From Pseudomonas farris (lineage in GTDB: Bacteria; Pseudomonadota; Gammaproteobacteria; Pseudomonadales; Pseudomonadaceae), in the NCBI RefSeq assembly GCF_019145235.1, contig NZ_JAHSTV010000006.1:124001-188000 (forward strand): DNA of 64,000 nt, written 5' to 3'. Below, in pieces: positions 6,891 to 33,270 of the stretch. The first letter of the stretch is position 1, and the number at the start of each line of letters is the position of its first letter. Position numbers and translations under genes: made by a program. The notes beneath the pieces were generated by a model. That model had not been told where the DNA came from and did not search any database. It was given only the letters and a program-made list of their open reading frames with translations.

Positions 6891-6925
6891 CTGTAGGAGC
6901 TGCCGAAGGCTGCGATCTTTTGATC
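6891..6925. repeat. REP-like element (single copy)
   Basis: The run CTGTAGGAGCTGCCGAAGGC followed by TGCGATCTTTTGATC matches the widely repeated P. fluorescens intergenic sequence. A degenerate relative (TGTAGGAGCTTTCCGAAA) sits near 37664. Confidence 0.6.
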
Positions 6926-6996
6926 TTGATGCCCTCAAACCTCTGGGAAATTTCCTTCAAAACGCCGGGCTGTTCATGAACTAGGCGGCTTGGGCC

Positions 6997-7247
6997 ATCA
7001 CCGATAACCTCTGTTCGTCACCGCAAAATCGGTGATTCGGACGTGCAAGTCCGGTGGAGTACACATTCGGTTATGGCAATTCATCGAGCGTTTTCCTATG
7101 CTCGCGAATCGTTATGGCGGCTGTGTATGGGAGACCTTCGGGTCTGCCGGGTGACTCCACCGGTCTTGCACACCTATACACAGCTGCCACCTCTTTCGAA
7201 GTGCACGCGAAATGGTGTCAGCTCCTTAAATCATGGAGTAACACTTA
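6997..7247 (+). promoter_or_regulatory. Structured 5' leader of the DUF6124 gene (candidate RNA switch)
   Basis: Several stems can be drawn. ATCACCGAT (6997-7005) pairs with ATCGGTGAT (7028-7036). CGGAC/GTCCG (7038-7053) forms a small hairpin. GTGCAAGTCCGGTGGAGT (7043-7060) is complementary at 17 of 18 bases to 7154-7171. A 13-bp stem joins 7116-7128 to 7176-7188. AGACC-TTCG-GGTCT (7132-7145) is a UUCG hairpin. The 18-bp and 13-bp stems cross each other, so they form a pseudoknot or are mutually exclusive. ACTCCA (7154-7159) can also pair with TGGAGT (7234-7239), the ribosome-binding region of the downstream gene. Two upstream frames run through it: ATG 7073, and GTG 7054 whose TAA overlaps the downstream ATG as TAATG. 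Function is inferred only. Confidence 0.5.
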
Positions 7248-7628
7248 ATGATCAAGCCAACACCGAATCCTCCCGAAAACCCAGCCACATCCCCCTACGA
7301 ATCCTTCGATTCGAAAAAACTCCACGAAGCCGCCGAACGCGCCCTCGACCACCATTTCGCCCCACCGCCTAACGAAAAACCCAAGCGTAAAGGCAAACTC
7401 TTCACAGTCTCCCCCGATATCGACACCGAAGCCCTCCTGGCCAACGCCTCCGAAGACCTGAAGTCCATCAGCGCCATCGCTGCCGACCTAGCTGATGACA
7501 TCGACGGCACCCGCCGCTCAGTCGCCCTGGCGCTCAGCAGAATGGCGGATGGGGTGCAGTTGTTGGTGGAGAGAGCACTGGATCATATTGATTCGCCGAA
7601 TCCAGCGGAGTATCGGGCGAAGGCATAA
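7248..7628 (+). CDS. DUF6124 family protein
   Basis: The protein has 126 residues. Its start MIKPTPNPPENPATSPYESFDSKKLHEAAERALDHHF is the conserved beginning of a Pseudomonas family I know as DUF6124. A basic linker (KPKRKGK) and a helical part (DTEALLANASEDLKSISAIAADLADDID, then ALSRMADGVQLLVERALDHI) follow. No signal peptide is present, so it is probably cytoplasmic. The family's function is unknown. GGAG at 7235-7238 is 9 bases before the ATG. The gene lies directly behind the long structured leader and a terminator follows it. Confidence 0.75.
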   Translation: MIKPTPNPPENPATSPYESFDSKKLHEAAERALDHHFAPPPNEKPKRKGKLFTVSPDIDTEALLANASEDLKSISAIAADLADDIDGTRRSVALALSRMADGVQLLVERALDHIDSPNPAEYRAKA

Positions 7629-7645
7629 AGGGACCACAGAAAGAA

Positions 7646-7668
7646 AAAGGGGACGTTGAGTCCCCTTT
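7646..7668. terminator. Bidirectional terminator
   Basis: AAAGGGGAC-GTTGA-GTCCCCTTT is a 9-bp stem with a 5-base loop. It sits between the DUF6124 gene and the convergent minus-strand gene ending at 7684 and could stop transcription from both sides. Confidence 0.7.
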
Positions 7669-7683
7669 CTCAATGATCTCGAC

Positions 7684-8142
7684 TCACCACTGACAGCCTG
7701 TCTCTGGTGACGCCTCCATGCTGATATCTTGATCGAACGAATACCTCTTACCGGATTTGTAATTCGTGTAGTACATCGAGTTTACCCGAGCCCCCTGAGT
7801 CGCCCTTTCATACTCCCCCGTCACCACACCGTCAGAAACCTCCACCCAAGTCGTCGTGAACTGATAAGGCCCGCCCTCCGTCATGACTTCTTCCTCAGTG
7901 TTCCGATAGACGAGAGGAATGGCCTTCTTCGACTTGCTATACCTAACCCCCGCGCCGCTCCATTGGGTGATCGAGTCGTAATAGGTTCTGAATTCGAAAT
8001 TGATGTTTTTGCCTTCCAGCGAACGGAAACAAGAAACCTGTGTTGTGACCTCACTGCGGGCCGTCAACGGCAACACCAACAACAGCATCAAAAAAAACTT
8101 CTTCACAAATCTCTCTGATCTCGCTCTGTTGAAAACGTCCAT
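7684..8142 (-). CDS. Exported protein of unknown function
   Basis: About 152 residues if ATG 8142 is used. GGGAG lies 7 bases upstream of that codon, which favours it over ATG 8148, and GTG 8106 is also possible. The N-terminus has basic residues, then FFLMLLLVLPLTARSE, a signal peptide with likely cleavage after ARS. The mature part (VSCFRSLEGKNINFEFRTYYD, then ITQWSGAGVRYSK) is rich in Tyr, Ser and beta-prone residues with two cysteines, one near each end of the mature part, so a periplasmic disulfide-linked beta fold is plausible. I recognise no family. It is last in a run of exported proteins downstream of a vgrG-effector pair. Confidence 0.6.
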   Translation of the reverse strand: MDVFNRARSERFVKKFFLMLLLVLPLTARSEVTTQVSCFRSLEGKNINFEFRTYYDSITQWSGAGVRYSKSKKAIPLVYRNTEEEVMTEGGPYQFTTTWVEVSDGVVTGEYERATQGARVNSMYYTNYKSGKRYSFDQDISMEASPETGCQW

Positions 8143-32761: not shown

Positions 32762-33270
32762 ACCATCGCTCCATCCATCGCGGCGTGGAAGTCAAAAGTT
32801 TCACCTTCTTTTCCTCCTACCAACTGAGTTCTACCCATTGCATCACTTTGCCCAGAGATAACTTCGCCTTTGGCAGTGGTGATTTGATAAGGAATATCCT
32901 GAAGTGGATTTCCATCCTGATCTTCCATCACAACATGCTGACAATGGGAAAACAGCATCAATGGAACCGGTGGAATAAACGGCGCCGGCGAATGCGAATT
33001 CCCGATAATCACCGTCCCGGACCCGGCCGTAACCTTGTTGCCATGAGTACCGGCTGAGCCCACGGTGGCCGCCGGTTTACCGTTGATCAAAACGGTGGTC
33101 GCAAGATCGCCAACCATCGCACCACCACACGCCGAGGCATCGCCTTGGCGGGCGGCCGCGAGGCCGTCGAAGAACACGTCGCCGGAACCGGCGGCGATCG
33201 GGTTGGTGCCGTGGCCGGGGAGCGGGCAAGCGGTGGGGTCGGATACGCGTGCTGCTGGTTTGCCGGACAT
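32758..33270 (-). CDS. PAAR-domain spike tip protein with C-terminal extension
   Basis: The protein has 170 residues, with AGGAGATTCGT before ATG 33270. Residues 1-95 carry the PAAR pattern (MSGKPAARVSDPTACPLPGHG, DVFFDGLAAARQGDASACGG, GSGTVIIGN). The extension of about 75 residues (FSHCQHVVMEDQDGNPLQDIPYQI, then GQSDAMGRTQLVGGKEGETFDFHA) looks like a transthyretin-like domain often seen in effector-carrying spike proteins. PAAR sharpens the VgrG tip and holds an effector. It lies 10 bases after tssE and overlaps the effector by 4 bases. Confidence 0.88.
   Translation of the reverse strand: MSGKPAARVSDPTACPLPGHGTNPIAAGSGDVFFDGLAAARQGDASACGGAMVGDLATTVLINGKPAATVGSAGTHGNKVTAGSGTVIIGNSHSPAPFIPPVPLMLFSHCQHVVMEDQDGNPLQDIPYQITTAKGEVISGQSDAMGRTQLVGGKEGETFDFHAAMDGAMV

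Follow-up and report, generated by a model that had tools for sequence, protein, structure and literature searches.

The closest described systems, as given in excerpts of their sources, are the immI region of phage P1 and the leader of Salmonella Gifsy-1. The C4 RNA of P1 is a 77-nt RNA acting in trans, and the annotated P1 record lists, in order, a1, b1, c4 (77 nt), a2 right after c4, and b2 before the icd start. The Gifsy-1 leader takes up either a silent fold A (IsrK pairs with orf45) or an active fold B, and these folds were proven by the compensatory pairs G28/C162 and G31/C159; IsrK, a terminated short RNA, works in trans, and translation of orf45 and anrP is coupled (PMC4825925). The terms 'C4 RNA', 'phage P1' and 'immI' are absent from the main text of that paper. 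In Burkholderia cenocepacia, ncS23/ncS24 place isrK and C4 in one transcriptional unit, a single locus with no gene family described in the excerpted text (PMC4603805). A table in Weinberg 2010 lists C4 for Proteobacteria/gammaproteobacteria and phages; the row itself gives neither gene association nor copy number, unlike the repertoire reported here (PMC2864571).

The window analyzed in this study is a stretch of 64,000 nucleotides from Pseudomonas farris. In the leader of a DUF6124 gene, it carries an RNA that belongs to the C4 family of Rfam (RF01695), with a score of 67.8 bits against a cut-off of 45 (cmscan); P1 immI, searched with the same tool, scored 68.8 bits for C4 and 51.0 bits for c4-a1b1. 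The region upstream of this RNA resembles the c4-a1b1 target (RF03163), scoring 38.2 bits (E 2.8e-8) against a curated cut-off of 46.7 and being complementary to the adjacent C4 at 17 of 18 bases, and c4-a1b1 matches of at least 32 bits were found in many paralogous leaders. No other Rfam match up to E 1 was found between positions 6900 and 7300. The parts are arranged as a1-b1-C4-a2-b2/SD-gene, with the start codon at 7248 (Table 1). Structure, order, the position of b2 on the ribosome binding site (RBS) and the start about 50 nt after C4 are all like those of the c4 immI regions of P1 and P7. Unlike in P1/P7, the module is chromosomal, occurs in 35 copies in one genome and shows recurring code classes at one site, and the controlled gene is not icd/ant but DUF6124 (or, elsewhere, DUF3077, BRO-N or others); at the window, the downstream icd and ant of a P1-type immI operon are missing and DUF6124 stands alone. 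Taken together, we consider it very likely that the chromosome has retained, as this leader, a C4 antisense-RNA module like that of phage P1 immI.

Table 1. Parts of the C4 module and the gene downstream of it, in positions of the window.
Feature	Position	Strand	Basis
C4 antisense RNA, including 5-base flanks of the Rfam model	7110..7194	+	RF01695, 67.8 bits; own 35-sequence model R1, 78.9 bits
C4 outer stem, 5' strand (pairs with 7173-7189, contains 7116-7128)	7115..7131	+	Rfam alignment, covariation
C4 outer stem, 3' strand (contains 7176-7188)	7173..7189	+	Rfam alignment, isolated fold, covariation
C4 hairpin 2 (AGACC-UUCG-GGUCU)	7132..7145	+	Rfam alignment, covariation
C4 b-arm, loop and 3' strand of hairpin 3; partner b1 or RBS (b2)	7154..7163	+	Rfam alignment, complementarity, covariation
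C4 a-arm CUUGCAC; partner a1, and a2 more weakly at the window	7165..7171	+	sequence
c4-a1b1 target region (RF03163), two small hairpins	7004..7057	+	Rfam match below the cut-off (38.2 bits)
Target a1, GTGCAAG	7043..7049	+	complementarity; named after the annotated P1 record
Target b1, CCGGTGGAGT	7051..7060	+	complementarity
Target a2, GTGCA, just 3' of C4	7201..7205	+	5 bases at the window
Target b2, the RBS TGGAGT of the DUF6124 gene	7234..7239	+	6/6 match to b-arm
DUF6124 gene, 126 aa	7248..7628	+	PF19619, 2e-27

A sequence-only reading of this leader had described two long, mutually exclusive stems. The first, joining 7043-7060 to 7154-7171, is indeed complementary at 17 of 18 bases, a level not attained in 200 mononucleotide shuffles of 6997-7247 (best shuffle, 15), and the folding energy of the leader has a z of -6.58 against 200 dinucleotide shuffles. 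The second, joining 7116-7128 to 7176-7188, is present, with 12 Watson-Crick pairs of 13 and not the full 13 bp claimed, and forms the middle of the C4 outer stem, which has 17 pairs in the isolated C4 fold. The two stems cross as described, the outer stem of C4 enclosing the arm that pairs upstream. The proposed pairing of ACTCCA (7154-7159) with TGGAGT (7234-7239) at the RBS holds at all six bases, and the assignment of the gene to DUF6124 was correct (PF19619). What had been missed is that the element belongs to a known antisense RNA family able to act in trans. Downstream pairing at the window is weaker than in most paralogues, with 5 bases at a2, which in many relatives has 7 (GTGCAAG), and 6 at b2; the duplex of the window C4 with its own downstream target ranks 21 of 35 targets. 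With its own upstream target, the duplex ranks first in both directions among the 35 modules, making this the strongest upstream target for its C4.

Stems and arms change in a compensatory manner among homologues. In 35 paralogues, 96.8% of the cells in the C4 stems, counted over the outer stem and hairpins with hairpin 3 only partly inside the counted structure, are paired, compared to 28-48% in slid-register controls, and 86 cells have changed on both sides, compared to 25.8 in shuffles. The arms were compared with their targets in permutation tests, which ignore relatedness among loci. In the 35 own modules, hairpin 3 scored 18.0 against its own RBS region and 12.3 against non-self ones (0 of 5000 permutations), the window row in this test resting on a wrong start (the ATG inside ATGGAGT). 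The junction arm scored 18.0 against its own stretch after C4 and 11.8 against others (0/5000), both arms matched their own upstream region better than permuted ones (0/5000 each), and the negative control, junction arm against RBS, showed no excess (9.7 self, 10.2 otherwise). Among 55 distinct loci sharing the a-arm of the window, for which the right start was used, the b-arm scored 19.0 self and 11.6 non-self against SD (0/5000) and 19.3 and 12.3 against b1 (0/5000); word sharing between b1 and SD was 5.51 versus 4.05, beating 5000 permutations that likewise ignore relatedness. The own target was best or tied in 15 of 35 own modules for b2 and in 19 of 35 for a2. Full orthogonality was considered but is not supported: for 11 of the 35 own targets, some non-cognate C4 of the genome equals or exceeds the score of the cognate one.

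In a fixed register (42 distinct rows from 64 of 75 loci, the 11 with another a-arm being left out), positions 5-8 of the b-arm:b1 helix pair in 76, 90, 93 and 86% of rows, compared to 37-47% in shuffles, and all four Watson-Crick pair types are seen at positions 5-7. Positions 1-3 are nearly invariant, 9 and 10 marginal, and 4, 11 and 12 at the shuffled level; sliding the register lowers pairing from 79% to 21-52%. The earlier proposal that either of two partners, one lying at the RBS, can engage the same arm is thereby borne out, and the compensatory change that it had named as a check is found in both arm pairings and in the stem of C4 itself. At the level of sequence, what comparison shows is the C4 structure, the matching of arms to targets and the joint change of b1, loop and SD. 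Many RBS stretches in the named loci depart from GGAG (e.g. TCGGTA, ATATCGG), as if a matching C4 loop outweighed the Shine-Dalgarno consensus there.

In minimum-energy folds of the whole leader, the C4 outer stem is kept in 20 of the 35 own leaders; in the other 15, including that of the window, upstream bases pair with the antisense part. When the upstream part was shuffled, the stem was kept in 133 and displaced in 7 of 140 folds, and when it was swapped for that of another locus, in 134 and 6 of 140, respectively. This excess of displacement in native leaders, together with the a1b1-paired fold of the window leader, fits a switch working solely in cis, in which two leader folds control translation with no free C4, the cue perhaps being temperature, a protein or an IsrK-like RNA acting in trans. 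Gifsy-1 also fits, as it is described to work through IsrK and not through a free C4. In the Gifsy-1 region (L207, 33400-34400), Rfam matches isrK, c4-a1b1 (48.1 bits) and C4 (69 bits) in a row, so that IsrK appears to be the a1b1 leader of such a module. Counted from the start of the isrK match, G28 and G31 lie in c4-a1b1 and C162 and C159 in the C4 antisense arm; because the proven Gifsy-1 pairs join these two elements, the exclusive stems noted at the window have an experimental counterpart. However, the Pseudomonas leaders keep the whole three-stem C4 and, apart from the a1b1 helix, a further pairing with a2/b2, and the described C4 of P1 is trans-acting. They also differ from Gifsy-1 in that the gene lies after C4, whereas the first Gifsy-1 gene, orf45, overlaps it, and in having no general terminator for an IsrK-like short RNA: terminators at -5 kcal/mol or lower were found in 8 of 35 leaders and in 29 of 175 shuffled ones, and between a1b1 and C4 the window lacks an IsrK-type intrinsic terminator (-0.9 kcal/mol). 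We therefore regard a purely cis-acting switch as possible but rather unlikely.

Translation-dependent control through a small upstream frame, of the kind described for orf45 in Gifsy-1, is a more doubtful alternative. An ATG lies inside C4 in all 70 distinct named leaders and in 30 of the 35 own ones, and a weak hint comes from its frame being open in 46 of 70 leaders versus 35 and 30 for the other frames (16 of 35 versus 13 and 9 in the own set). At the window, the frame that the sequence-only reading saw ending at TAATG on the gene start does exist, with a length of 44 codons from the ATG inside C4 or 64 from the GTG at 7054, but it is not conserved: in the 70 leaders, the spacing of this ATG and the gene start shows no preferred frame (23/25/22 modulo 3), the stop position varies, and TAATG occurs at just 6 of 64 loci.

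That the leader is a decayed prophage remnant without present function is very improbable. C4 is best known from phages and some own modules look decayed, such as L042 (C34:213816) and L051 (C34:302627), in which the DUF6124 gene after the C4 module is broken or truncated, but stem and arms show compensatory change, an intact DUF6124 gene is kept at the same site in many species, and a search of 50,697 phage records and 72,556 plasmids gave DUF6124 in one phage record and in no plasmid. Least credible of all is a ligand riboswitch or transcription attenuator, as the two exclusive stems might suggest, since no riboswitch family is among the Rfam matches, a terminator signal is absent, and the leader varies most in its pairing arms, which differ between strains at one site, the opposite of a conserved aptamer. 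Of the RNA switch or attenuator first proposed, the alternative partners, the fold displacement and the Gifsy-1 homologue speak for a switch, while the ligand and the terminator are not supported.

Under the favored reading as a C4 module of the P1 type, the transcript would carry, in order, target a1b1, C4 RNA, target a2 and target b2, the latter being the RBS. Release of C4 is by RNase P in P1. The candidate free C4 would fold into a long outer stem and two hairpins, as the covariation supports, and by analogy with P1, its a- and b-arms may pair with a2 and b2, in its own transcript or in sister ones, and mask the RBS, thus silencing the gene in trans. More transcript would then mean more silencing, as expected from the trans-acting c4 of P1. 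The upstream a1b1 is predicted from folding to compete for the C4 arms, its pairing in cis leaving no native C4 fold, as was demonstrated for the homologous leader of Gifsy-1, and the balance of the two folds would set the amount of C4 made.

The P. farris genome contains 35 C4 RNAs over the cut-off, 34 c4-a1b1 matches at E 0.001 or better (18 over the cut-off) and 26 DUF6124 matches (25 over the cut-off). C4 is followed by DUF6124 in 20 of the 35 own modules, one of them truncated and sub-cut-off, and six of the 26 own DUF6124 genes have no C4 over the cut-off. Ten C4-led proteins, six further non-DUF6124 loci being left out of the scan, yielded DUF3077 (three), BRO-N (one), DUF6124 (one) or no Pfam match (five). 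At L028 (C34:67639), the C4 module precedes a BRO-N protein, and the BRO-N domain occurs in phage antirepressors. Two DUF6124 genes, L060 (C8:44443-44836) and L061 (C1:652913-653379), have an upstream c4-a1b1 match and no C4 match, and might be loci that have only the target and could be controlled in trans.

Across the genus, C4 was detected in 110 of 119 sampled Pseudomonas genomes at E 0.001 (109 over the cut-off), 17 of the 119 having at least 33 candidates, and in a class sample beyond the genus it was found in 23 of 368 genomes, based on the best 11 candidates per genome. Of 59 Pseudomonas genomes, 47 have DUF6124, in up to 43 copies, and its copy number correlates with that of C4 (Spearman 0.87 over the 59 genomes, C4 being counted among the best 33 candidates); none of these genomes has DUF6124 without C4, and seven have C4 without DUF6124. 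Of 80 named Pseudomonas loci, 74 gave a C4 match with the 35-sequence model on the + strand ahead of the gene. Among the six exceptions, L136 has only 150 bases upstream, and L156, L162, L193, L200 and L201 gave no match at E 5. On 62 viral contigs (L208-L269), C4 lies before small genes that by eye are DUF3077-like, DUF6124-like or encode a recurrent 52-60 aa protein, and the small frame after C4 at L029 of the P. farris genome resembles the latter.

Flanking protein(s) are shared with the window in 51 of the 80 loci, and the 48 of these with C4 make, with the window, a same-site set of 49. Seven classes of b-arm code were defined by us after the sequences were seen. Loop and SD belong to the same class in 45 of the 49 loci, the four exceptions reflecting overlapping pattern names (ATCGG inside ATATCGG; ATATCGGGAT), and loop and b1 in 47 of 49, L179 being a real exception and L194 a naming overlap. 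On the flanking-gene tree (48 rows), the class changes 30 times (shuffled mean 31.2; 57 of 200 shuffles as good), and on the DUF6124 tree 29 times (32.0; 13 of 200), counts that are inflated by gene trees that are short and poorly resolved (15 of 46 inner branches starred in a quick DUF6124 tree). On a tree of the leader from which b1, hairpin-3 and SD had been removed, there were 9 changes (31.7; 0 of 200). Hence it is the remainder of the leader that the code class tracks, not the tree of the flanking gene and not clearly that of DUF6124, and leaders look as if they had been exchanged as cassettes; alternatively, the cassettes may have come from paralogues within the same genome by gene conversion. 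For example, the identities along L173 and L174 are 0.98 (-900 to -300), 0.80 (-300 to -130), 0.77 (leader), 0.85 (C4), 0.67 (C4 to gene) and 0.99 (gene), and their downstream DNA is unrelated (0.45), while L155 and L173, which share one class, have a C4 identity of 0.96 and a gene identity near 0.7. In Pseudomonas sp. GM18, two adjoining DUF6124 copies about 5 kb apart on one contig (L127, L129) carry different code classes.

Dozens of chromosomal C4 modules with allotype-like codes, several of which recur at one site and each of which is kept consistent among b1, C4 loop and RBS, on cassettes that would move between strains independently of flanking and coding DNA, could tentatively be read as RNA-based self/non-self typing, an idea that we put forward as a speculation of rather low probability. 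If true, it would imply selection to differ from modules in the same cell or from incoming elements with the same code. Superimmunity against phages was considered and rejected: of 50 distinct viral modules, 19 are matched by the own C4s as well as by the cognate C4, whereas 35 random other viral C4s do this for a mean of 31.2 of the 50. Because the own C4s match fewer viral modules than random viral C4s do, they show no sign of being aimed at phages.

No chromosomal multi-copy C4 family is described in the open-licence literature searched, as covered by the excerpted text of PMC2864571, PMC12197685, PMC4603805, PMC12189769, PMC4666395, PMC8198154 and PMC8546580, and no mention of DUF6124 was found in open-licence literature. 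The RNA family is already known, and the chromosomal repertoire and the cassette exchange were not seen within that scope. With the present reading, an unexplained leader becomes a testable antisense module, a regulator known from phage immunity would represent a large gene-control family on Pseudomonas chromosomes, and the IsrK and C4 literatures are joined. In the many antisense/RBS pairs of these loci, specificity was apparently rewired again and again at one site, and this natural set may help to address the evolution of antisense specificity and its possible role in recognition.

The DUF6124 product of the window is confidently predicted to form a C-terminal helical hairpin at residues 60-112 (mean pLDDT of the model, 76; blocks 61-110 at 95-98). 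Foldseek returned no PDB match for this model at E 0.001 or better, and hhalign gave no support for kinship with DUF3077 (probability 6%) or with other C4-led proteins (0.2%). A consensus scan of 6930-7720 found no sigma-70 promoter. Elsewhere in the window, the Pseudomonas sRNA P10 is encoded at 33176-33247 on the - strand (RF01668, 90.3 bits).
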